Below, piece after piece: positions 7,294-35,383 of a stretch of DNA of 39,768 nucleotides; the stretch's first letter is position 1; every line of letters begins with the position of its first letter. Origin of the DNA: Candidatus Dormiibacterota bacterium (GTDB lineage Bacteria > Chloroflexota > Dormibacteria > Dormibacterales > Dormibacteraceae); NCBI GenBank assembly GCA_003151935.1, contig PLYZ01000051.1, forward strand, positions 1 through 39,768. Direction: 5' to 3'. The notes below the pieces were generated by a model. It did not search any database and was not told the origin of the DNA. It worked only from the letters and a program-made list of their open reading frames with translations. Both the position numbers and the translations under genes were made by a program.

Positions 7294-8910
7294 TTAATTA
7301 GTAGCAGGGCGGTGACGCTCGACGATCGAGATGAACTTTGTGCTCGGCGGGAGCGTGCCGAACGAATGGCCCCAGTCACCACCCAGGCGCGAGGCGCAGA
7401 ACGCATCCGCCACGTCCGGATCGCCGTACCGCACCAACAGCGAGCCCTGGAGGACCATGGCCATGCGCTCGACCAACCGGCGGGCTCCCGATTCGGCAGC
7501 GGCCGCGTCCCTCAGCTCAAGCTTCAGGCCCGCGACAGCCCGGTCGAGCCGCACGTCTGAACCGCTTGCCCGTTCCACCTCGGTGAGCAAGGCTGCGATC
7601 GACTCCGGCTCGCGGCCCATCGCGCGAAGCACGTCGAGCGCGTTGACGTTCCCCGACCCCTCCCAGATCGAGTTGAGGGGCGCCTCGCGGTAAAGGCGCG
7701 GCAGGATCGACTCTTCGACGTAGCCATTTCCGCCGTGGCATTCCAGCGCCTCGGCCACGACCGCGATCGCGCGCTTGCATGTCCAGTACTTGGCGATCGC
7801 CAGTCCGAGGCGGCGGAAGTGCGACTCGTCCGCATGATCGGACTCGCGGTCGAAGGCTCCGGCGAGACGCATCATCAGGATCGTCGTGGCTTCAGATTCC
7901 ACCGCGATGTCCGCGAGCACGTTGACCATGAGCGGCTGCTCGCTGAGGAGCTTTCCGAACGCGCTGCGGTGCGCGGTGTGATGAGTGGCCTGGGCTACGG
8001 CCTGCCTCATCAGCGAGGCCGAGCCGATGACGCAATCCAGCCGGGTGTGGTTGACCATCTCGATGATGGTGCGAACCCCTCTTCCCTCTTCCCCGACCAT
8101 GACCGACCACGCGTCTAGAAGCTCGATCTCGACGGAAGCGTTCGATCGGTTGCCGAGCTTGTCCTTGAGACGCTCAATGTGGAAGCCGTTGCGTGTGCCA
8201 TCCGGAAGCACGCGCGGCAGCAGGAAACAAGTGAGCCCGCCGGGCGCTTGCGCAAGGATCAGGAACGCATCGCACATGGGCGCAGAGCAAAACCATTTCT
8301 GGCCGGTGATGAGGTGCTCGCCGCTGGTGCCCGTGGGCACTGCACGCGTCGTGTTGCTGCGAACGTCAGAGCCGCCCTGCCTCTCGGTCATCGCCATCCC
8401 GAAGAGAGCTCCCCGTTTGGTCGATGCCGGGCGAAGGCCAGGGTCGTAGTCGAGCGTGGTCATCAGGGGTTCCCATTGGCCGGCCAGGTCTTTCTGCTGC
8501 CGGAGCGCGGGCACCGCCGCGTAGGTCATCGACACCGGGCAACCGTGCCCGCCCTCCACCTGCGACCAGATGTAGAAGGAGGCGGCGCGCGCGGCATGCG
8601 CGCCGGGACGCGGCTCGCGCCAGGGCATCGCATGCAGCCCGTGGCCGACCGCCACCTCCATCAACCTGTGCCAGGCGGGATGAAACTCGACCTCGTCGAT
8701 CCGGTTGCCGAATCGATCGTGAGTGCGGAGTTGAGGTGGGTTGGCGTTGGCCTGGAATCCCCAGTCGATCGCCTCCTGCATTCCCGCGAGGCGGCCGAGG
8801 TCGTGCACCTGGTCCTGCGCCCACGCTGCGCCTTCGCGCTCGAGCGCCTCGCGCAGCGGCGCGTCGGCCTCGAAGAGGTTGTAGTCGACCAGCGGCGGCG
8901 GCTGATTCAT
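7294..8910 (-). CDS. aidB: AidB-type acyl-CoA dehydrogenase family protein
   Basis: At 538 residues the length is almost that of E. coli AidB (541). Family-diagnostic stretches are NPPQLRTHDRFGNRIDEVEF near the N-terminus, GMAMTERQGGSDVRSNTTRA (flavin/active-site loop), LKDKLGNRSNASVE, and LPRLYREAPLNSIWEGSGN near the C-terminus. AidB proteins are FAD-binding, have weak isovaleryl-CoA dehydrogenase activity and bind DNA; in E. coli they belong to the adaptive response to alkylation. The DNA-binding and protective role here is inference. ATG 8910 overlaps the stop of the upstream LLM oxidoreductase gene (ATGA), and otsB follows five bases after the stop, giving a three-gene operon. Confidence 0.93.
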   Translation of the reverse strand: MNQPPPLVDYNLFEADAPLREALEREGAAWAQDQVHDLGRLAGMQEAIDWGFQANANPPQLRTHDRFGNRIDEVEFHPAWHRLMEVAVGHGLHAMPWREPRPGAHAARAASFYIWSQVEGGHGCPVSMTYAAVPALRQQKDLAGQWEPLMTTLDYDPGLRPASTKRGALFGMAMTERQGGSDVRSNTTRAVPTGTSGEHLITGQKWFCSAPMCDAFLILAQAPGGLTCFLLPRVLPDGTRNGFHIERLKDKLGNRSNASVEIELLDAWSVMVGEEGRGVRTIIEMVNHTRLDCVIGSASLMRQAVAQATHHTAHRSAFGKLLSEQPLMVNVLADIAVESEATTILMMRLAGAFDRESDHADESHFRRLGLAIAKYWTCKRAIAVVAEALECHGGNGYVEESILPRLYREAPLNSIWEGSGNVNALDVLRAMGREPESIAALLTEVERASGSDVRLDRAVAGLKLELRDAAAAESGARRLVERMAMVLQGSLLVRYGDPDVADAFCASRLGGDWGHSFGTLPPSTKFISIVERHRPATN

Positions 8911-25974: not shown

Positions 25975-26333
25975 CGCCTTACAGGAGAATCGTAGATTCT
26001 GCCCGGCCAATGTCTGTTGCCATTTGCCCGTCGGCGAGTGTGGCTCAACGGGGTAGGACCATCGCACCTTCCTGGTCGCGGCCGTGGTATCCGCCGTTCG
26101 ATTGATTCGCCTACACCGCAACCGTGCGATGTGGGATGCGAAGGTAGAGGCACCATTCGAGCCGGCGGCCTCGGCCTCACAGGAATTGCTTTCGCGATAC
26201 AGCAAGAACTGGTAGCCCAAGCGGGACGCTATTCGAACCGGCTCGACAAACTACTCGTAGCCCTTGCGGCGAAGTAAGAATCGCGCGGGGGGTGGGCCGC
26301 GCTGGCCGCCCGACTCCCCTGTTGAACCCCCGC
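25975..26333. other. Gene-free stretch at left edge of accessory region
   Basis: No convincing gene is seen in these 359 bp. An open plus-strand frame (26017-26277) has no recognisable domain except its tail, AQAGRYSNRLDKL, which is shared with two other places in the window and is the coded face of the tRNA-3'-like repeat at 26208-26247. The rest may be remnant DNA. Confidence 0.5.
26208..26247 (+). repeat. tRNA-3'-end-like repeat, copy A
   Basis: The 18-base core GCGGGACGCTATTCGAAC (26221-26238) is identical in copies B and C1. Read on the minus strand it resembles a tRNA end: TTCGAAT, five extra bases, then CCCGC and GGGCTACCA. Flanking bases encode VAQAGRYSNRLDKL on the plus strand. Confidence 0.75.
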
Positions 26334-26732
26334 CTACTGGGGTCTCACCTCGACGAACCCGGCGGCGTTGAAGTCGCCGTCGAACGCCAACGCCTCGCGG
26401 ATCCGGCGCCGCCGCATCACAGCGAAGCTTGTGGCATCAACAAATGAATACTCGCGCTCTGCACGTGATCGAAGCCAGCGCCAAGCTTCGGTTTCGGTGG
26501 TCTCATCAACGTGAACAACCTCGACGTCCTTGAGCGCCTCCAATCGGTCGACGAAACCAACCGCCGCAGCGTGCCCGGAGCGTCGACGAAGCAGCGTCCA
26601 TGTCTCACCGACGACGTGATTGGTCGTAACGACCCGGCCGACACCCCGCTCAACAAGCGCCTTCGCTTGCGCGTGGCGGCCGTCCCTGCGCTCCTGTAGG
26701 CCGAACCAGAAACTGGTGTCCGCGAACCTCAC
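26334..26732 (-). CDS. vapC: PIN-domain toxin VapC
   Basis: This 132-residue PIN RNase has the acidic catalytic set: Asp5 in FADTSFWFGL, Glu in NHVVGETWTLLRRR, Asp in YSFVDATSFAVMR, and Asp in ALAFDGDFNAAGF. VapC toxins cut specific RNAs (often tRNA or rRNA) when freed from VapB. GTG 26732 overlaps the antitoxin stop by 4 bp (GTGA), the classic vapBC order. It lies between tRNA-3'-like repeats A and B. Confidence 0.9.
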   Translation of the reverse strand: MRFADTSFWFGLQERRDGRHAQAKALVERGVGRVVTTNHVVGETWTLLRRRSGHAAAVGFVDRLEALKDVEVVHVDETTETEAWRWLRSRAEREYSFVDATSFAVMRRRRIREALAFDGDFNAAGFVEVRPQ

Positions 26733-26953
26733 CGGTCGCGGTCGTACACGACCGCATCGAGGTCCTCGACAGGACCATCGTCCAGCCATCCGGTGAGCGC
26801 CTTCCACGGATCCGTGGCGGGACGCTGGTCGACCACCAGCTCGCGCGCCAGTGAAGCCCTGATCAGTGCCGCCTTAGACAATCCTCGTCGCGCCGCCTCG
26901 GCCTCGGCGGCGTCGTCCAGCGCCTCATCGATGTGAATCTGAATCCGCCTCAC
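26729..26953 (-). CDS. vapB: Ribbon-helix-helix antitoxin VapB
   Basis: This 74-residue protein has an N-terminal ribbon-helix-helix (RRIQIHIDEALDDAAEAEAA, RRGLSKAALIRASLAREL) for operator binding and an acidic C-terminal tail (GWLDDGPVEDLDAVVYD) of the kind that occupies a PIN toxin. GTG 26953 was chosen; an in-frame GTG five codons upstream is possible, and no clear Shine-Dalgarno favours either. It is coupled to vapC by GTGA. Confidence 0.85.
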   Translation of the reverse strand: MRRIQIHIDEALDDAAEAEAARRGLSKAALIRASLARELVVDQRPATDPWKALTGWLDDGPVEDLDAVVYDRDR

Positions 26954-26990
26954 ACGACCAGCATACACACCATCGGCGCGTGAGGTATGT

Positions 26991-27030
26991 ACTGGTAGCC
27001 CTGGCGGGACGCTATTCGAACTACCTCGAC
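26991..27030 (+). repeat. tRNA-3'-end-like repeat, copy B
   Basis: The 18-base core at 27004-27021 is identical to copies A and C1. It is preceded by GGTAGCCCTG and encodes VALAGRYSNYLDQL before a stop. It lies just upstream of vapB and 60 bp from the 3' end of the lipocalin-like gene. Confidence 0.75.
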
Positions 27031-27093
27031 CAGCTTGGAGAGCTTGTGAACCGCTGAAGGACGAGGTTCTGAAGCCTAAACGCCTGTTGCCTA

Positions 27094-27516
27094 CTAATCC
27101 CGTTCCCAAACGATCCTGCGGACGTCAATCTTGCCTGGGGACACGATGCTTGGCGCCGGTGCCGACTCGATCAGCAGCCTGTCGCCCTCGATCGTAAAGT
27201 GGCGCCTCTGCTCGGTGCCGTTCCAGTCTTCGTTCCAGGAGACATCGACGGTCGTGATGAAGTCGTTACCTTCAATGCGGTAGCGGCCGCTGTACGCAAG
27301 CATCGACTTGTGCAGCGCGGCTCGTTCGGGGTCGCCCATCCCACCCTTGCGGTCGTCGGCGGTCGTCAGTGCCATGCTGCGACCCTCGCGGGTCAGGATC
27401 AGGAAGCCCTTTGGGTGTGCTCCAAAGACGTTCTGGGGCGCTTCGTTTTCGGCAACCACTTGCCAGGAAACGAGTCTCCAAGTGCCAACAAGGGCCTCTG
27501 AATCCTCCGCGCACAC
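27094..27516 (-). CDS. Lipocalin-like domain protein
   Basis: The protein has about 140 residues: ALVGTWRLVSWQVVAENEAP, then GFLILTREGRSMALTTADDR, SMLAYSGRYRIEGNDFITTV and LLIESAPAPS. This matches the lipocalin-like family PF13924, small beta-barrels of unclear ligand common in accessory DNA. The start is ambiguous: GTG 27516 (chosen, since conserved sequence begins soon after), GTG 27537 or ATG 27585. The longer versions run into the repeat C1 region and are rich in Arg and Cys, unlike the family. The gene is bracketed by repeats B and C1. Confidence 0.75.
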   Translation of the reverse strand: MCAEDSEALVGTWRLVSWQVVAENEAPQNVFGAHPKGFLILTREGRSMALTTADDRKGGMGDPERAALHKSMLAYSGRYRIEGNDFITTVDVSWNEDWNGTEQRRHFTIEGDRLLIESAPAPSIVSPGKIDVRRIVWERD

Positions 27517-27582
27517 GCTGCTGCATAGTTTGCACACGCGGGCGGATCGACACCGTCGAGTCGTGGCGCCAACGGAAGGAGG

Positions 27583-27622
27583 CATAGCCCAAGCGGGACG
27601 CTATTCGAACCGCCTGGATGAA
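27583..27622 (+). repeat. tRNA-3'-end-like repeat, copy C1
   Basis: The 18-base core at 27593-27610 matches copies A and B. It encodes IAQAGRYSNRLDEL and the frame stops in the adjoining attL. Compared with copy A, the codons for Arg, Leu and Asp after the core differ but the residues are kept. Confidence 0.75.
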
Positions 27623-27645
27623 CTCGAATTACTGGCGATTCAAGA

Positions 27646-27662
27646 TTGGTAGCCCCGGCGGG
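27646..27662 (+). repeat. attL: attL candidate, 17-bp direct repeat
   Basis: TTGGTAGCCCCGGCGGG is identical to 35270-35286, which is the 3' end of tRNA-Glu in antisense. The copies are in direct orientation 7.6 kb apart and bracket the recombinase-bearing segment. Confidence 0.75.
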
Positions 27663-27710
27663 ACTCGAGCCGACAGTTCCTGAGCCGACGCAGCCCGGAT
27701 CAGGGGCGAC

Positions 27711-29207
27711 TCAACCCGAATCGGGTGCGCGACCACGCTGTCCCGTGTGATCGGGGAGAGCGACGTCGAGGGCGGCCGGCGTTGCCTCGTCGGCGGCAGA
27801 GCCGAAGCCCATCTGCTCCAGTGCACCCCGCCAAGACTGGCGCCACTGCTCTCGGGCACCGGGGTCGATGAGTTGCGCGTCGACGTCGAAATGTCGACCC
27901 TTGCGCCCAGCGGGCCATCGCTCCAAGTCGAGGAGAAAGCCGCGTGCCAGGATCGCCCGCCGTAGCAGGTCGCGGGCCCGATCCAGCGCGAGAGCCCACT
28001 TCACCCCGCGCCAGGTAGTTCGTTCGGTGCTCGAGATCTTGTATGCCTGCGCCTCGAGCTCCTTGGTTGTGGGGTTGGAACCGTGCACGACGAGCGAGCG
28101 AAGCCCGTAGATGCATTTGATGTCTGAGTAGATCCTTGTTGGCGGGTCGGTCGGCGTGGCAAGCAGTGCGGCCGCCCGTGACCGCAAACGGAGACCGATC
28201 TCTTCCTGTTCCGAACCGCCCAGCAGGGCGGCTTCGATGCCGACCGCAATGTCGACCAGCATGTCGAACCAGGAACGCGTTACAAAGGACCGGCCGAATC
28301 GGCTCAGTGCAATGCCGAGGCTGTGTGGATTCTTGTCGTCGCCGCCCCAGGCGGCCAGTCGATCGCCCAGGGCCGCGATCGGAGCGGCATGCTCGGGCTG
28401 GACGTGCCCTATCCGCTGAACCAACTCCATGAATCCGAAGTCGTGTCGAACGATTTCAGGTCTGTAAAAACGGACGCGGCCAGGCGCAGCCGTAATGTCC
28501 ACGACAGCTTGCGATGTGGTCGCGGTGGCGAGTCGCAGCGCCGAGGTTAGAGTTTCTATTCGAGCGAGCGCCAGCCCTTTCGCGGCTGAATAGCCTTCCC
28601 CCATTCGGTCCCCGACCGCGGCCTCGGTGTGGGTAATCAAGGTGGCGAAGGTGAAGCTGGGGCCGGTTCGGTATCCAATTTCTGCGTCGAGCAGGCGCCC
28701 TGCTCCAGGAATGAAGCCATCGATGTCCCGATAGGCATCGGTTAGACCCCAGTTCCCGACAGGCCGCAGTTCCACACCACCGATGGAGAACGGAGCGTCG
28801 AGCGTGATGTCCGATATCACGCGCGCCGCGACGGCGCGGTCCCGGTCTCTCTGCACCAGGTCGAGCATCTCGTCAACCGCGGCCGCGAGGTCCGCCGGCC
28901 TGAGCTCAAATTCCAAATGCAGATCTGCAGCGCGGAGAACCACGCCATCGAGCACGGCCCAGATGTATTGCGACGGGAGCTCGTGCCTGCCGAGCGGGCC
29001 TGCGAAGCGATCCGGGAAAGCCGACTCCAGAGCCTCCTCGAGCTGGTGATACTCAGCGAGTGACAGCACGCTCTGGCCCCAATCAGGCATGAGTTCCATC
29101 CACTTCGAGGGTTGGAGTCGTACGGCGCGTTCCTGGGTGCGCAGGTGCTCAAATACAGCGATCACGAGCGCTCGCGCTGCCCCGCGGACCGAGGGAATAT
29201 CAGCCAT
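27711..29207 (-). CDS. HEPN-domain protein, ApeA-like, candidate abortive-infection RNase
   Basis: This 498-residue protein has a long N-terminal region without recognised motifs (residues 1 to about 290) and a C-terminal helical HEPN-like domain. There, RLRSRAAALLATPTDPPTRI leads to IYGLRSLVVHG, giving R370-x4-H375, the R-X4-6-H RNase motif of HEPN proteins, in the context (YxLRS-x-xVHG) seen in ApeA-type anti-phage proteins. Family members cut RNA after infection and halt growth. The N-terminal part would be the sensor; this is inference. The gene is next to attL, divergent from the 29316 ORF. If the element circularises, its 3' end overlaps the extended recombinase frame. Confidence 0.65.
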   Translation of the reverse strand: MADIPSVRGAARALVIAVFEHLRTQERAVRLQPSKWMELMPDWGQSVLSLAEYHQLEEALESAFPDRFAGPLGRHELPSQYIWAVLDGVVLRAADLHLEFELRPADLAAAVDEMLDLVQRDRDRAVAARVISDITLDAPFSIGGVELRPVGNWGLTDAYRDIDGFIPGAGRLLDAEIGYRTGPSFTFATLITHTEAAVGDRMGEGYSAAKGLALARIETLTSALRLATATTSQAVVDITAAPGRVRFYRPEIVRHDFGFMELVQRIGHVQPEHAAPIAALGDRLAAWGGDDKNPHSLGIALSRFGRSFVTRSWFDMLVDIAVGIEAALLGGSEQEEIGLRLRSRAAALLATPTDPPTRIYSDIKCIYGLRSLVVHGSNPTTKELEAQAYKISSTERTTWRGVKWALALDRARDLLRRAILARGFLLDLERWPAGRKGRHFDVDAQLIDPGAREQWRQSWRGALEQMGFGSAADEATPAALDVALPDHTGQRGRAPDSG

Positions 29208-29315
29208 CGCCTGGACCCGAAGCGTATGCCTACGGCGATAGTAACTGTCTTAAAGCTACCCTAGGTAAGAAGCACGCGAGCCCACCCTCTCCGATGACCG
29301 TAGGATGCCTCGGAG

Positions 29316-29411
29316 ATGAGCATTGGGATTGGCGCCAAGGACTTCCGAGTCGTACGCGCGATCGAGCGCGACATCATGGAAGGCCTCACCCGCGAACGGG
29401 ACGACCGCTGA
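29316..29411 (+). CDS. 31-residue ORF coupled to the downstream membrane protein
   Basis: ATG 29316 opens a 31-codon frame (MSIGIGAKDFRVVRAIERD, then MEGLTRERDDR) whose TGA shares its A with the ATG of the next gene (TGATG). Codon choice is coding-like, with G/C in most third positions, and CGGAG precedes the start. The sequence is charged and likely helical. I do not recognise it; it may be a leader peptide or a small functional protein. Confidence 0.45.
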   Translation: MSIGIGAKDFRVVRAIERDIMEGLTRERDDR

Positions 29412-30019
29412 TGGACACCGCAACGCAGACACTTGTCAGCTCGGTCGCCGCCGCGGTGGCCGCTATCGCCGCGGTGTTCGCGCTCGGCATCGCGGTCGTC
29501 GCCCTCTTCGTCGCTCGCAGCACTCTCCGCGAAGCACGCGCGACGACAGAGGCTCAGCGCGAAACGTTGCGAGCAACCGAGGCCGCCGCGACGGCGACCG
29601 AGGCAGTTGCGGGCAGGATCGAAACGTCGACTCGGGTGCTGCGTCTGATCTTCGCCGAAGCGCAGGCAACGCGCGAGCTCGAGCAGCTACGCCGAGTCGC
29701 CGACCAGGTCGCGCTGCTGATTCCGTTGCGCCGGGCCGTACGGAAAGCCAGTCTCCAGCCCGACCCGGACAACCTAGCGCCGTGGTTTGCGCACAACGAC
29801 GCGCAGGCTCTTCTGGCTGCGCAGGTCGAAGGGCTGCCGCCAGATGAGCTTCCGAAATGTCGTGAGATGGCGACGACGGCCGATCCGAGGTACACAGACG
29901 GTCTCGACGAACAGGCGACCCACGAAATCAAGGGAGCGATCACGACCGCCCGCCTCCGACTCGAGCAGCTCACGGCTGAGGCGACCACTGAACTGACTCG
30001 TTCTCAAAACGGAGCGTGA
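29411..30019 (+). CDS. Membrane-anchored coiled-coil protein, unknown
   Basis: This 202-residue protein has an N-terminal transmembrane helix (VAAAVAAIAAVFALGIAVVA, LFVAR), then a long heptad-like region (LREARATTEAQRETLRATEA, then ATATEAVAGRIETSTRVLRL) and a C-terminal charged helical part. This plan (one helix plus cytoplasmic coiled coil) is common among phage-defence and element-borne accessory proteins, but no specific family is evident. It is coupled by TGATG to the 31-residue ORF and divergent from the HEPN gene, so a joint function is possible. Confidence 0.68.
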   Translation: MDTATQTLVSSVAAAVAAIAAVFALGIAVVALFVARSTLREARATTEAQRETLRATEAAATATEAVAGRIETSTRVLRLIFAEAQATRELEQLRRVADQVALLIPLRRAVRKASLQPDPDNLAPWFAHNDAQALLAAQVEGLPPDELPKCREMATTADPRYTDGLDEQATHEIKGAITTARLRLEQLTAEATTELTRSQNGA

Positions 30020-30034
30020 GCAGCCAAGTCATGC

Positions 30035-30895
30035 TCACGGCGTAAGTACACGCACTATGTGGTTGGTAACAGCCTCGGCTCGCTTGCTGAACTCCTCTAC
30101 CCCAATGGCATACGGAGCGATCGACATTAGCGCATCAACATCGGTGTCGAACGAACCGACGTCGTCCCCGAGACTCTCTTCGAACCATTGGCCAGCATCC
30201 ATGAACCGCCTCCGCATTGGCCAATACTGATCTTTGAACTCGGCAACTCCAATGACACCACGCAGGAATCGCTGGATCAGCGACCAGTACTCGATACCGA
30301 TGCCGGCCACGCGCGCCGAGATTGATTCCAAAGCCATTCTGAAGGCACTCTCAAGCCCTGCGTCGTCGACAAGGTATTCTCCGCCGCCGGGGCTGTACGA
30401 GGCCAGGGTCGTTCCGAGTGAGGCGTTGAGCCAGTCGTCTGGCAACTCTTGCAGAAGGAGTCCCTCGATTCGTGACACCCGATCCTTCGATCGCTCGGAC
30501 GGTGCATTGACGTAGAGCCTCATCGAATTACCGAGGGCGGTGAGCTGCTCATCGAGTCTCGGCCGGCGGAGGCGATCGGCGAGGTCGGCCAAGAAGACCG
30601 CCATCGGCAAGCCTTTACTGCGCGGATCGAAGTTGAGGCTGTAGCGCGCCAACACGTAGTCGCTCAGCAGTGGCTCGTTAAGGCCACGGCCAACGAGTTC
30701 TGTGACGTCCTTGGCGACGGCTCCAGCGTCGGCGGGAGATAGCACCGCTTTTGCGTCGTCGACCGCCGCCGTGAAGGAGGATGAGTCCCCCTCCCAATCG
30801 GGGTGGAAGTAGGACAAGACGAAGTCCTGGAACGCGTACAGCCTGCGCACCAAGCGCCCGTCCGGCATGCGTTCCGTGCCCGGAGGATCGCTCAC
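30035..30895 (-). CDS. Immunity-like protein (CdiI_2-type N-terminus plus colicin-immunity-like C-terminus)
   Basis: This 286-residue protein appears to join two immunity-type domains. Residues of about 15-115 (LYAFQDFVLSYFHPDWEGDS, then SLNFDPRSKGLPMAVFLADL) resemble contact-dependent inhibition immunity proteins, which share the LxxFLxxYFHxDW pattern. The C-terminal part (IEYWSLIQRFLRGVIGVAEF, KDQYW) resembles self-protective colicin-like immunity proteins. Such proteins bind and neutralise a cognate toxin in the cytosol. No toxin gene lies in the window. GTG 30895 overlaps the preceding gene stop (GTGA). Assignments rest on recalled patterns, not a search. Confidence 0.5.
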   Translation of the reverse strand: MSDPPGTERMPDGRLVRRLYAFQDFVLSYFHPDWEGDSSSFTAAVDDAKAVLSPADAGAVAKDVTELVGRGLNEPLLSDYVLARYSLNFDPRSKGLPMAVFLADLADRLRRPRLDEQLTALGNSMRLYVNAPSERSKDRVSRIEGLLLQELPDDWLNASLGTTLASYSPGGGEYLVDDAGLESAFRMALESISARVAGIGIEYWSLIQRFLRGVIGVAEFKDQYWPMRRRFMDAGQWFEESLGDDVGSFDTDVDALMSIAPYAIGVEEFSKRAEAVTNHIVRVLTP

Positions 30896-31449
30896 GCCTC
30901 GAGCCTCGAGTCCAACCAATCGCGAAGCTTCACGTACCAGGCCGCGAGCTGCAGGTAGGAGCCATCGACGGGCGTCCCGTCCAGCTCAACGGAGTACCAG
31001 TCGTATCCGTAGCCTCCGCCGGCGAAGTTGAGCTCGATCGAGTACCAAGACCCGTCGAGACTGATCGACCTGGGCTGCAGTTTGGGGATGCCAGCCGATG
31101 TGGGAGCTGGAATGCGCGCCAGCCATTGCTCCACGTCTGCCACCGGGGCAGATGCCTCGACGGCCTCCATCGTTGGCTCCAAGGGGTGATCCAGATGGCC
31201 GATACGCCACATTGGATCTCCTCGCGGGCCATCAAGGTCTGCCCTCCACACGAGGCGACGCAGAGTGGCCGCCGTCTCTCCAGCAGTCGGCCCTATTACA
31301 GTCCACTGGCGATAGTTAGCGAGGGACGGCTTCTCGGTCAGCCGCAGGCGAGCTCTCCGATCGGAATCCGTCTCCGGGTCCTCCAAGGCAGCCTCGACCA
31401 TGCGCTGTAATTCTCGCCACTCCTCGATGCCGCGCTCTGCGTCATTCAT
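30892..31449 (-). CDS. Unknown 185-residue protein in the immunity-like operon
   Basis: I do not recognise this protein. The N-terminus is acidic and helical (ERGIEEWRELQRMVEAALED), the centre contains WTVIGPTAGETAATLRRLVW, and the C-terminal half is aromatic-rich (SISLDGSWYSIELNFAGGGY, GYDWYSVELDG) ending LAAWYVKLRDWLDSRLEA. The GGGYGYDWYS stretch gives it the look of a small globular immunity or nucleic-acid binding protein. It overlaps both neighbours by 4 bp (ATGA and GTGA), the middle of a three-gene operon. Confidence 0.6.
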   Translation of the reverse strand: MNDAERGIEEWRELQRMVEAALEDPETDSDRRARLRLTEKPSLANYRQWTVIGPTAGETAATLRRLVWRADLDGPRGDPMWRIGHLDHPLEPTMEAVEASAPVADVEQWLARIPAPTSAGIPKLQPRSISLDGSWYSIELNFAGGGYGYDWYSVELDGTPVDGSYLQLAAWYVKLRDWLDSRLEA

Positions 31450-31964
31450 TGCCGTGAGGGTTCGAGGGCGCTAGCCGCCTTTTCCATCCGCGTCAGGAGA
31501 CGCCTCAGGGCCATGTAGACGCGACGGTGGTAGAGACGCCGCGCGTGGCGGGCCGAAATTCCGAGCTCTTCGGCGATCTGGTCGAACGGGACCCCACCCT
31601 TTCGAAGACGATGGACTGAGATCAATCGGTGGATCGTCGGGCTGATCTCGGGGTGGCGGCAGATCTGCTCCGCGAGGGCGAGCTCTTGCTCCCTCCAGTG
31701 TCCCGACCGGAGCACGACCTGCGTCACGGGCGCCCATGCGTCGTTGAGCTGCGACCGCGAGAGTCGCTGCGCCAGCGCCTGACCGCGCCGCGGAGGCTCG
31801 AGCGCGAGCAGGTCCTGGCGCGCGATGAAGTAAGCGCCATGTGGTCCCCTGGTTGCCCCAAGCCTGCCATCGCGGACGCGAAGGCGAAGGGTCTCGACGT
31901 GACAGCCAAGCCCCCGTGCGGCGTCATCGAGTCTGACTAACTCGCCCTTCACCGCAACCGCCAT
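31446..31964 (-). CDS. Dual helix-turn-helix DNA-binding protein (MerR/excisionase-like plus sigma-region-4-like)
   Basis: This 172-residue protein has two DNA-binding parts. The N-terminal one (LVRLDDAARGLGCHVETLRL, then VRDGRLGATRGPHGAYFIAR) matches the MerR-type excisionase HTH_17 fold. The C-terminal one (VPFDQIAEELGISARHARRL, YHRRVYMALRRLL) resembles a sigma-70 region 4 HTH. It could be the element's transcription regulator or directionality factor. ATG 31964 was chosen over TTG 31967. It leads the minus-strand operon and is divergent from the Replic_Relax gene. Confidence 0.68.
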   Translation of the reverse strand: MAVAVKGELVRLDDAARGLGCHVETLRLRVRDGRLGATRGPHGAYFIARQDLLALEPPRRGQALAQRLSRSQLNDAWAPVTQVVLRSGHWREQELALAEQICRHPEISPTIHRLISVHRLRKGGVPFDQIAEELGISARHARRLYHRRVYMALRRLLTRMEKAASALEPSRQ

Positions 31965-32064
31965 CAACTCGATTCTCCCAGATTCAAGGTCCGATGGACA
32001 TGAGTTTTTGGAGATTGTTCTCTATAGAAATGGTTGCTGTTGCCGCGCGCGAGGGCGGCGTGCG

Positions 32065-33198
32065 ATGAGCGTGCGGTCGGCATGCGGCCGCCTTCCCAGC
32101 CCTGAGGTGGCCAGAAGGTGGGCGCTCTGGGGATCGCTCGAGGAAGCGAAGGCCCGCGCGAGTTCAGAGTGCCGAGGTTGGCAGGACGGACCGTATCAGC
32201 CGTATTCCCTCACGACGATCATCGCTCCCGACCGGCTGCCACCGGCCAACGCTCGGCTCAGTGCACGCGTCCGCAGTCAACTCCTCTCCAACATCACCGA
32301 CCGCGACCGCGCTCTGCTCATCGCACTTGCTAGCTTCCGCTACCTCGACATGCGTCAGATCCAATCGCTCATGTTCCCCAGCCAGCGCACCACCCAGATG
32401 AGAATCCACCACCTCCTCGAGCTCGGACTCGTCCACCGCTGGAAGATCTTCGAGACCAACTTCTACCGCTGGCCCTCCGTCATCCTCCTCGCGCCGCGGG
32501 GGGCGGCGCTCGTTGCCCAGCTGCTCGACTCGAACCGCACAGCAAACATCGAGCAGGCTCACCTCGCGGCTGATCGACGCGGCCGGTTCTGGCGCACGCT
32601 GAGCGCGAACTGGTTCTTCGTCCGGCTCGCCGAGGCCAGCCCCAGTGCCGGGCGGGTGGGATTCTACCGCTGGCTAGGACCCGCCGATCTCCGGCCCGAC
32701 GATGACGGCCGCAGCCTGGTCACCGAAGGCTGCGGCCTGTATTTGTTCCCGGACGGCGATGTCGCCTTCGACCTCGACTGGGCTCGCGCCGACCTAGAAC
32801 GCCATTGGCTCCGCCGCCGGCTCGACCTGTACTTCCGGTACTTCGTCTGCAACGTCGATCCCCCGATTCACCACGTCCTATTCGTCGCGCGCTCGGAGCG
32901 AGGCGAGCGCCGCTTGGTGAGCGCTGTCCGGCGGCAGCATCGCAGCTGGTTCAGGAGCTACCAACGGTCGTGGGTCACGACGATTGACCGCGTCGACCGT
33001 GAGGGACCGCTGGGCACGATCTGGCGTTATGCGTACTCATTCCCACACGAGCCAGAGGGTTGGGTCGCACCGGACGAGGGCGAGCGTCTCAGGCTCGAAG
33101 ACTTCCCGAAGGCGCCGCCCGAGCACGTCGACCCTCGCGGTTGCATTGGTCGGCCGCAATGGTGGCGGTTCCGACCGTTAGGAGCCGGCGGACCATGA
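32065..33198 (+). CDS. Replication-relaxation family protein (Replic_Relax)
   Basis: This 377-residue protein has the Replic_Relax winged-helix start (ITDRDRALLIALASFRYLDM, RQIQSLMFPS, MRIHHLLELGLVHRWKIF) followed by YRWPSVILLAPRGAALVAQL. This family (PF13814) is carried by plasmids and integrative elements and is thought to act in their replication or mobilisation. The C-terminal half (YRWLGPADLRPDDDGR, PDGDVAFDLDWARADLERH) resembles the usual nuclease-like second half, with acidic residues in DVAFDLDWARAD. A TTG at 32008 would add 19 residues rich in Cys/Arg, so ATG 32065 is preferred. ATGA coupling links it to the next small ORF. Confidence 0.8.
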   Translation: MSVRSACGRLPSPEVARRWALWGSLEEAKARASSECRGWQDGPYQPYSLTTIIAPDRLPPANARLSARVRSQLLSNITDRDRALLIALASFRYLDMRQIQSLMFPSQRTTQMRIHHLLELGLVHRWKIFETNFYRWPSVILLAPRGAALVAQLLDSNRTANIEQAHLAADRRGRFWRTLSANWFFVRLAEASPSAGRVGFYRWLGPADLRPDDDGRSLVTEGCGLYLFPDGDVAFDLDWARADLERHWLRRRLDLYFRYFVCNVDPPIHHVLFVARSERGERRLVSAVRRQHRSWFRSYQRSWVTTIDRVDREGPLGTIWRYAYSFPHEPEGWVAPDEGERLRLEDFPKAPPEHVDPRGCIGRPQWWRFRPLGAGGP

Positions 33199-33365
33199 AA
33201 CGACGCCAGATGAGGGGGGTCAGAATCCGACCCCCTCGACTGATCGACGGCGGCGGACGACGCGAGCTCACTCGAGACGACGTGCTGGCGCTGGTCAACG
33301 CGATCGTCGCGCAGGCAGTTCGCGAAGTCGAGGATGTGGCGCGGCGAGCCGCTGAAGCGGCGTGA
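33195..33365 (+). CDS. 56-residue basic small protein, unknown
   Basis: The ORF starts at ATG 33195, overlapping the Replic_Relax stop (ATGA). It has a basic N-terminus (KRRQMRGVRIRPPRL) and a helical C-terminus (DDVLALVNAIVAQAVREVED, VARRAAEAA) with heptad-like spacing. Coupling and coding-like codon use support it. It may help DNA binding or be a partner of Replic_Relax; this is inference. Confidence 0.5.
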   Translation: MKRRQMRGVRIRPPRLIDGGGRRELTRDDVLALVNAIVAQAVREVEDVARRAAEAA

Positions 33366-33422
33366 TCAGGCGGCACAACACGAAGTTGATTCGGCTGGAC
33401 ACGCGCGGTACGATTGCTGACG

Positions 33423-33797
33423 ATGCCGGCCAAACCACGGACGCCACCCGCGTCGGCGATCCGACTCGGCGAGATCATCCGCCGGGAACGCCTTCGACGC
33501 GACGTGCCAGCTCTGTATCTCGCGAAGAAGGCCGGCGTGGGCCGGTCGTACATCAGCTACCTGGAGAGCGGCGGATTTCAGCAAGTCCGCGTGGACAAGC
33601 TGCTCCGCATCCTCCAAGTCCTCGAGCTCGACATCGAGGCGATCCTCGAGGAGGCCGGATACCTGCCGAAGAAGATCCGCAGCCTGCCCGAGCCCGCCGC
33701 TTACCTGCGGCAGCGATACCGGCTCTCCGAGAGCTCGATCCAGCAGGCGCTCAGCTTTCTCGACTACCTCGTCAGCAGGGAGAAGCCGAAGAGGTGA
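33423..33797 (+). CDS. XRE-family HTH regulator
   Basis: This 124-residue protein has a HTH_3 domain (LGEIIRRERLRRDVPALYLA, KKAGVGRSYISYLESGG, VDKLLRILQVLELD) and a C-terminal helical tail. Such proteins repress element genes or control excision. Its TGA overlaps the recombinase GTG (GTGA), so the two are translationally coupled. ATG 33423 was preferred to a frame start nine bases earlier. Confidence 0.85.
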   Translation: MPAKPRTPPASAIRLGEIIRRERLRRDVPALYLAKKAGVGRSYISYLESGGFQQVRVDKLLRILQVLELDIEAILEEAGYLPKKIRSLPEPAAYLRQRYRLSESSIQQALSFLDYLVSREKPKR

Positions 33798-35383
33798 AGC
33801 GCGCGCTCATCTACCTGCGCGTCTCCACCAAGGAGCAGGCTGAGGGATTCAGCCTTGACGCCCAACGCGAGGCCTGCGTCCGCTTCGTCGCCGACAAGGG
33901 TTGGCTCATGGCAGGCGAGTACTCCGACCGCGGTGAGTCCGCGCGCACGGTGAACCGGCCGATGTTCCAGGAGATGCTGGAGAAGGTTGCGGCCGACAAC
34001 TCGATCTCCCATGTCGTCGTCCACAAACTCGACCGCCTCGCCCGGAATGTCGAGGATCACGTGGTCGTCCGGGGGCACATGCGGAAGCACGGCGTCACGC
34101 TCGTGTCCGTCAGCGAGGGCGTTGACGAATCGCCTTCAGGCCAGCTCGTCGAGAACATCATGGCTTCGATCGCCGCCTTCTACTCAGCCAATCTCGGCCA
34201 GGAGACGAAGAAGGGGATGGGTCAGAAGGCGCGCTCCGGTGGCTGGCCGCACAAAGCGCCGATCGGCTACCGAAACATCCGGCAGGACGGCCTGCGCCGC
34301 TCGATGGCTCAAATCGTCCATGACCCAATCCAGGCGTCGCTAGTTCGGGAGGCATTTCACGTCTTCAGCTGCGGCGAGTTGTCGATCCGCCAGCTCCGCG
34401 ACCTCATGGCCGACCACGGGCTCCGGACGACGGCGGGCACCATCCCCGCCATCTCGCAGATGCATCGCCTCCTCACTAACAAGCTCTACACGGGCGTCGT
34501 GAGCTGGCACGGCGAAGAGCACCAAGGCGAACACGAGCCGATCGTCGAGCCCGAGCTCTTCGACGCGGTTCAAGCAGTGATCCGAAAGCATCAGGGTGGG
34601 GCCGTCCGCGAGCGGCGCCACCACCACTACCTCCGCGGAAAGCTCTTCTGCGCGACCTGCGCGTCCCGTTGGACTGACATGCAGGTCAAGCGGCAGCAGT
34701 ACCGCTACTTCTTCTGCCTCGGCCGCCACCTCCGCAGGACCGCGTGCAAGCAGCCCTACATGCCGGCCGACGAGCTGGAGCGGCTCGTCGAGGCCCACTA
34801 CTTCCGAGTCTTCATCCCGGACGAGCGCAAGGCCGAGATCAGACGGTTCGTCACCGAGGAGGTCAACCGCCGTTTCGCCAACCTCGGCCCATCGAAGGCG
34901 GCTGCCCAGAAGCGCATCGCTCAGCTCGACAACGAAGGCCAGCGTCTCCTGCGCCTCTACCTCGCGGGCGGCCTCGAAATGAATGCCTTCCAGCGCGAGC
35001 AGGATCGCATCGCGACCGAGACCCAGGCCCTCAGCGCACCGGCCGAGCCCGAGGCGGACCTGCAGCTCGCGCCGACGGTGGTCGAGCGCGCCTTCGCGAT
35101 CATCGACAACATCGCCGAGGCCTACCTCCGCGCCAACGATCGCGAGCGGGCGATGTGGAATGAGGCCGTCTTCGCCGGCATCTGGGTCGGGGACCGCGAG
35201 ATCAAGCGGACCGAGTACCGTGACCTCTTCGCATCCATTCTTTCGGACACCAGTTCGAATTGGGTCAGTTTGGTAGCCCCGGCGGGGTTCGAACCCGCGA
35301 TCTCAGCCTTGAGAGGGCTGCGTCCTAGACCACTAGACGACGGGGCCACGTTCTGGTGGGCGGCATTGGGTTTGAACCAATGA
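33794..35383 (+). CDS. int: Large serine recombinase (integrase), C-terminus encoded across tRNA genes
   Basis: Starting at GTG 33794, the 529-residue frame has the resolvase N-terminus RALIYLRVSTKEQAEGFSLD with catalytic Ser11, a VVHKLDRLARNVEDH segment, the Recombinase domain (QKARSGGWPHKAPIGYRN, then LYTGVVSWHGEEH), and a zinc-ribbon pattern (LFCATCASRWTDM, RYFFCLGRHLRRTACKQ). Coiled-coil segments follow. It catalyses integration and excision between attP and attB. The last 38 residues (beginning VSLVAPAGFEPAISALRG) are antisense tRNA-Glu and tRNA-Val sequence; the first stop is at 35381-35383. Confidence 0.93.
   Translation: MKRALIYLRVSTKEQAEGFSLDAQREACVRFVADKGWLMAGEYSDRGESARTVNRPMFQEMLEKVAADNSISHVVVHKLDRLARNVEDHVVVRGHMRKHGVTLVSVSEGVDESPSGQLVENIMASIAAFYSANLGQETKKGMGQKARSGGWPHKAPIGYRNIRQDGLRRSMAQIVHDPIQASLVREAFHVFSCGELSIRQLRDLMADHGLRTTAGTIPAISQMHRLLTNKLYTGVVSWHGEEHQGEHEPIVEPELFDAVQAVIRKHQGGAVRERRHHHYLRGKLFCATCASRWTDMQVKRQQYRYFFCLGRHLRRTACKQPYMPADELERLVEAHYFRVFIPDERKAEIRRFVTEEVNRRFANLGPSKAAAQKRIAQLDNEGQRLLRLYLAGGLEMNAFQREQDRIATETQALSAPAEPEADLQLAPTVVERAFAIIDNIAEAYLRANDRERAMWNEAVFAGIWVGDREIKRTEYRDLFASILSDTSSNWVSLVAPAGFEPAISALRGLRPRPLDDGATFWWAALGLNQ
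35270..35286 (+). repeat. attR: attR candidate inside tRNA-Glu 3' end
   Basis: TTGGTAGCCCCGGCGGG is identical to the copy at 27646-27662. It covers the CCA end, acceptor 3' strand and part of the T arm of tRNA-Glu (minus strand), the classic integration site for serine and tyrosine integrases. Confidence 0.78.
35271..35347 (-). tRNA. tRNA-Glu (anticodon CTC)
   Basis: The minus strand from 35347 folds as a tRNA: acceptor GGCCCCG pairs with CGGGGCT (one G-T pair), D loop GTCTAGTGGTCTAGGAC, anticodon stem CAGCC/GGCTG with loop CTCTCAA giving anticodon CTC, T arm GCGGGTTCGAACCCCGC, discriminator A and encoded CCA. Its 3' end is the element's right att site, so the integrated element leaves it intact. 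Confidence 0.95.

Follow-up and report, generated by a model that had tools for sequence, protein, structure and literature searches.

The window, by which we mean the whole 39,768-nucleotide stretch of Candidatus Dormiibacterota DNA analysed here, carries a gene that probably encodes a stand-alone, two-module defence protein, its ribonuclease held by the N-terminal half, as cargo of an element that targets tRNA-Glu. This reading rests on motif conservation, the predicted fold, mobility and genomic context. The family to which the protein belongs is unnamed; HEPN RNases as such are already known. They recur in prokaryotic immunity, where the trigger is what differs among them, so a family whose N-terminal half has no match, and whose carrier elements pass from one species to another, offers a new trigger to work out. 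The gene, the parts of its product and the element are listed in Table 1.

Table 1. Features of the HEPN-type gene and of the element that carries it (window coordinates)
Feature	Position	Strand	Basis
Left copy of 17-bp direct repeat (attachment-site remnant)	27646..27662	.	Exact repeat of tRNA-Glu 3' end
HEPN-type protein gene	27711..29207	-	ORF, 498 aa, ATG start; 17 homologous loci; alignment A5
HEPN core, approximately residues 293-427	27927..28331	-	Range aligned to HepT chains; domain model pLDDT 88.1
Predicted catalytic motif R370-S-L-V-V-H375	28083..28100	-	R, S and H invariant in 18/18 rows
N-terminal half, residues 1-262	28422..29207	-	AlphaFold2 secondary structure; proposed regulatory or sensor module
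Hypothetical protein with hydrophobic stretch, divergent from HEPN gene	29294..30019	+	No significant Pfam match
CdiI_2 immunity-like domain protein	30035..30919	-	CdiI_2 5.9e-9
Hypothetical protein	30892..31449	-	No Pfam family
HTH_17 protein (excisionase-like)	31446..31967	-	HTH_17 4.2e-8
Replication-relaxation family protein	32008..33198	+	Replic_Relax 1.4e-6, above Pfam cut-off
Large serine recombinase	33362..35383	+	Resolvase 1.3e-35, Recombinase 2.3e-11, Zn_ribbon_recom 2.1e-9
Right copy of 17-bp repeat	35270..35286	.	At 3' end of tRNA-Glu(CTC)

Conserved motif and predicted fold

The preliminary description had singled out R370 and H375 as a HEPN motif, and the numbering is correct, as the translation reads IYGLRSLVVHG at residues 366-376. 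A bare R-x4-H motif has little evidential value because a shuffled protein yields it by chance. Shuffled versions of the window protein (2000 shuffles) contain 1.2 such motifs on average, with one or more in 72% of them, and the native protein has a second one at R92. The motif was counted as real because its position is conserved among homologues. Alignment A5 comprises the window protein and 17 homologues that are 24 to 37% identical to it; 14 rows are left after dropping those more than 80% identical. R344, Y367, R370, S371, H375 and G376 are invariant in 18/18 rows, E325 is kept in 17/17 rows, and position 315 is D or E in 17/17. H375 ranks third by information content among the scored columns, behind two tryptophans. 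A second block, D409-R410..D413..R416-R417, is conserved in all 17 of the 17 rows having residues there. Set A2, which is more divergent, has D315, E325, R344, Y367, R370 and H375 as its sole invariant columns (9/9 rows), all within the HEPN part of the protein. Two loci had been excluded from A2 beforehand, L009 for in-frame stops and L002 (genome G011) for matching outside the motif region. The L002 match is confined to residues 123-212, and we take this protein to resemble MurB. Lack of conservation among homologues had been named as a finding that would speak against the HEPN reading, and neither alignment has a row without R370 and H375. Two other remarks in the preliminary description hold in part. 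The motif, placed there at the end of the protein, lies in the C-terminal half, but about 120 residues still come after it. The protein was also said to contain no other recognised motif, which is true for Pfam, NCBIfam and PADLOC but overlooks the second conserved block.

An AlphaFold2 model of the full-length protein, built from A5, has a pLDDT of 83.2 and a pTM of 0.84. It is helical over residues 4-119 and 271-427 and alpha/beta over 122-254. Folded alone, the C-terminal domain gave a pLDDT of 88.1 and a pTM of 0.88. The HEPN part consists of helices 296-306, 313-329 (with D315 and E325), 356-375 and 400-427, and R370-H375 terminates the core helix 356-375. Residues 337-349 were taken as an insert between helices 2 and 3, following the HEPN definition in the accessible text of PMC3710099.

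HepT structures fill the top three rows of the structural comparison with the full model (6m6u, Z 6.9, 3.4 A over 104 residues; 5yep, Z 6.8; 7bxo, Z 6.8), and the nucleotidyltransferase-like 3c18 is fourth (Z 6.0). All four cover residues 289-425, and the next row (Z 4.5) covers another part of the protein. For the domain alone the first five rows are 3c18 (Z 5.8), 5yep (5.6), 9oij HepS (5.3), 8pe3 Csm6' (3.8) and 3jrt (3.5), with unrelated proteins from Z 3.3 down. Every one of these leading rows, four for the full model and five for the domain, is a HEPN or HEPN-bearing protein, 3c18 and 5yep presumably as HEPN-domain carriers. The Z values are modest, at most 6.9, and the best of them, 5.8 to 6.9, lie below 8, the level that the structural comparison tool treats as safer. 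Foldseek found no match at E <= 0.001. In the accessible text of PMC3710099, 3jrt (an integron cassette protein) and Csm6 are among the HEPN families, the HEPN motif stands at the end of helix 3, and an acidic residue stands in helix 2. We read the domain as HEPN because varied HEPN families top the lists, the motif is at the expected place, and those residues are invariant. A predicted structure lacking the HEPN fold had also been named as evidence to the contrary; prediction gave a helical domain with HEPN-type best neighbours. The fold, its structural neighbours and conservation all support a HEPN fold and active site, and the protein is likely to be a HEPN RNase.

The N-terminal half fits its earlier portrayal as undescribed, with no sequence match and weak fold matches only. 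Profile A8, built from this half, has no significant PDB sequence match, and no match to CBS or another known sensor was found. The structural tables list no CBS, ABC-ATPase or other sensors either, an absence that excludes nothing. Fold matches of this half to TetR-like proteins (Z 4.5) and eIF2-alpha (Z 4.3) in the full model were treated as noise. In L022 (2284-3024), L024 and L028 (9047-9901), the HEPN protein is preceded by a fused additional domain some 250 residues long. Pfam gave no match for it in L022 and L028, nor did the PDB in L022; by eye it looks helix-hairpin-helix-like.

The element at tRNA-Glu and carriage of relatives

The gene adjoins the edge of an island, as first described, with 48 bp between its stop codon and one copy of the flanking repeat. 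The element measures 7,624 bp from one 17-bp repeat copy to the next, and this 17-bp word is expected about 6e-6 times per window. The HEPN gene is at one end; the serine recombinase and the Replic_Relax protein are at the other. No CdiA-like toxin was recognised among the element genes to accompany the CdiI_2 protein (30035-30919). Just outside the left repeat (window 26334-27109) are PIN-domain and ribbon-helix-helix genes resembling a VapBC pair.

The tRNA-Glu region of a genome of the same genus, G002, matches the window at about 90% from 35273 rightward, and the fetched region has no counterpart of window 25980-35272. Because the left flank is rearranged there, G002 shows that the element is absent but does not offer an empty site resolved to the base. 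A 96% identical recombinase adjoins this tRNA in G001, where the contig ends within the recombinase, and in G041 the tRNA-Glu 3' end occurs in three tandem 40-bp copies. This tRNA-Glu has thus been used for integration.

Distribution of the family is patchy. Relatives occur in 9/400 genomes of the phylum, profile A3 has matches in 2/110 genomes of the class (the window's own genome included in both counts), and profile A4 has matches in 2/177 genomes of the class of G326. Against genome contigs, profile A4 found 17 loci (L021-L037) in Actinomycetota, Chloroflexota and Dormibacterota; three of the proteins also bear a second label (L027 = L017, L032 = L003, L034 = L011). Of these, L017 comes from a genome of the window's class (G450) and L003 from one of its phylum (G326). 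In the tree a long branch (1.63) leads from an open fork to the window protein. L027, a Dormibacterota protein, is placed with good support among proteins that otherwise all come from actinomycetes, as expected for transfer, and a Phage_integrase gene is about 0.3 kb from it.

The loci of Nocardia coubleae (L031) and N. neocaledoniensis (L033), compared in 250-base steps, are mostly 76-92% identical over roughly the first 8.5 kb. Starting at tRNA-Ala (8599-8672), every step is 98 to 100% identical until the alignment ends at about 16.5 kb. Within this shared stretch of about 8 kb lie the family member and a Phage_integrase gene; the flank next to it is about 88% identical. The stretch is a very recent island transfer, and a second, independent case of tRNA-linked carriage with another integrase class. 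The element at tRNA-Glu, the Nocardia island and the neighbours of the relatives support the defence-like mobile context that the preliminary description had seen.

Comparison with described HEPN systems

The window protein is unrecognised by Pfam and PADLOC at E <= 1, and none of the 18 family members has a convincing Pfam, NCBIfam or PADLOC model or matches a HEPN Pfam model at E <= 1. Since the group is invisible to the searched copies of these databases, surveys relying on them would probably miss it. A PHROGs family of unknown function, phrog_28161, is matched by 16/18 members at E <= 1 (best E 2e-5), and by the window member over the motif (E 0.034). Searched in genomes, phrog_28161 matched 0/121, and the controls gave no signal either. 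Plasmid and phage records had no match to the window protein and two relatives as queries, viral-contig scans found no relative, and PDB sequence searches with the whole protein gave nothing meaningful. No description of this family was found in the literature, which is weak evidence, as most subscription papers lie outside the coverage.

Kinship with ApeA, proposed in the preliminary description, had to be abandoned. None of the 18 family members matches PF18739 at E <= 1, hhalign against four PF18739 proteins gave 0.7% probability, and a further profile comparison gave 0.4%. The four proteins are the matches found in 3/101 genomes of the window organism's relatives. Three of them have RN-x3-H (the fourth is without the H there in the frame read), and close to the N-terminus all four carry G-x-W/F-W-L/I-P. 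The two groups are alike in length (about 450-500 aa) and in having a large N-terminal half followed by a HEPN domain. However, the window family has RS-x3-H where ApeA-type proteins have RN, and it lacks the G-x-W/F-W-L/I-P region. Its N-terminal half is helical plus alpha/beta, whereas that of ApeA is mostly beta; the accessible text of PMC3710099 describes ApeA-NTD1 as mostly beta strands. Alignments A5 and A6 showed no N-terminal similarity. ApeA membership was therefore rejected, given no PF18739 match, no profile similarity, RS instead of RN and a different N-terminal half. Elsewhere in its genome, G002, the close relative without the element, has two PF18739 (ApeA-type) matches (L013, L015).

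With the HEPN superfamily as set out in the accessible text of PMC3710099, the window family shares R-x4-H, a predicted helical fold, the acidic residue in helix 2, and a mobile and defence context. It differs in having S, itself polar, after R in 18/18 rows, where that text gives a polar residue that is mostly N, D or H, and in having its own N-terminal half and its own DR..D..RR block. HepS of the Gifsy-1 prophage (PDB 9oij) is, by its PDB title, a prophage-borne HEPN protein, and the accessible text of PMC9879122 treats a Gifsy-1 prophage HEPN gene as a candidate RNase. Csm6 and Csx1 (CARF-HEPN) combine a regulatory N-terminal half with a C-terminal HEPN domain, the layout proposed for the window protein, and Csm6' is among its structural neighbours (Z 3.8). 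The window family has no convincing CARF match; PADLOC CARF2--CARF_HEPN was hit in 3/18 members with a best E of 0.029. DS-11 is a CBS-HEPN system in which one protein with a regulatory domain provides defence and the HEPN catalytic residues are required for it, according to the accessible text of PMC13092281. That system sets a functional precedent for the architecture that we propose, although the N-terminal half of the window protein has no CBS match.

Neighbouring genes and alternative functions

HepT proteins (6m6u, 5yep, 7bxo) are the closest solved folds for approximately residues 293-425 and the best structural neighbours of the window protein, and its gene is located on a mobile element. 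Both points suit a toxin-antitoxin pair that keeps the element stable, this protein being the toxin, with a separate antitoxin nearby and phage defence secondary or absent. HepT, however, is the small partner of the MntA nucleotidyltransferase, and none is encoded at the window element. No MNT nucleotidyltransferase antitoxin was found among the element genes or flanking genes scanned, nor any other recognised antitoxin among the element genes. Its length of about 500 aa and its large N-terminal half also set the protein apart from a small type II toxin. No neighbouring gene is shared between lineages, except for two distantly similar integrases (L027, L034), which argues against an obligate partner and fits a one-protein system. 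A toxin-antitoxin function is thus unlikely.

The neighbour survey covered a selection of 30 proteins, including two fused N-terminal extensions, rather than every neighbour. L021 is near an Eco57I methylase and a ResIII/RAMA protein, L034 near N6_N4_Mtase and ResIII genes (a Mod/Res-like pair), and L028 near DUF3644 and UvrD and DEAD helicases; in the accessible text of PMC3710099, DUF3644 overlaps a HEPN family. SIR2_2 is directly downstream of L023, and L032 has SIR2_2 and a D5-type primase as neighbours. R-M, SIR2 or DUF3644 genes are near at least 5/17 loci, and at least 8/17 when integrase genes (L027, L031, L033) are counted. At the other 9/17 loci no defence or recombinase gene was seen among the neighbours scanned, the scan being selective and several contigs short. 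As a rough control, SIR2_2 occurs in 37/151 genomes of the window's phylum. Two SIR2_2 in 226 kb of loci is more than expected, in a post hoc comparison whose baseline phylum differs from that of most loci. The five loci with such genes (L021, L023, L028, L032, L034) would suit a HEPN RNase effector that fires upon failure of a neighbouring R-M, SIR2 or helicase module, as PrrC does with its R-M system (accessible text of PMC3710099). Since the companion systems vary by locus, none is shared, and the window's element has no such system, this function is more doubtful again than that of a toxin.

Least probable is a non-defence regulatory or RNA-processing protein merely travelling on mobile elements, or a non-catalytic HEPN-like fold, with which the low structural Z values agree. 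R, H and the helix-2 acidic residues remain invariant across proteins about 30% identical, which loss of catalysis would not lead one to expect, and the patchy distribution (2/110 genomes with profile A3) also speaks against this reading.

For the two-module defence protein that we favour, we infer RNase activity, a dimer, autoinhibition, a trigger and phage defence. The gene would be cargo of a tRNA-Glu-targeting integrative element and the C-terminal half a HEPN ribonuclease, whose active site, metal-independent and probably part of a dimer, may be formed by R370 and H375 together with E325 and the acidic position 315. The helical plus alpha/beta N-terminal half would hold the RNase inactive until an infection signal reaches this half. 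Once released, the RNase would cut host or phage RNA, and the cell would be stopped before phage release. From context, phage defence is plausible, at somewhat better than even chances. A broader proposal, which we put forward tentatively and at somewhat below even chances, is that this HEPN family of at least two phyla (Actinomycetota; Chloroflexota including Dormibacteria) constitutes an undescribed one-protein abortive-infection system. Its N-terminal half would be a new sensor wired to the RNase, its spread would be due to unrelated integrases at different tRNA genes, and one lineage would have a further unmatched front domain of 250 residues. Cultured Nocardia and Leifsonia supply candidates that can be cloned. 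In Streptomyces cellostaticus (L035) only the C-terminal HEPN part is in frame, with the motif intact, and this is probably a decaying copy.
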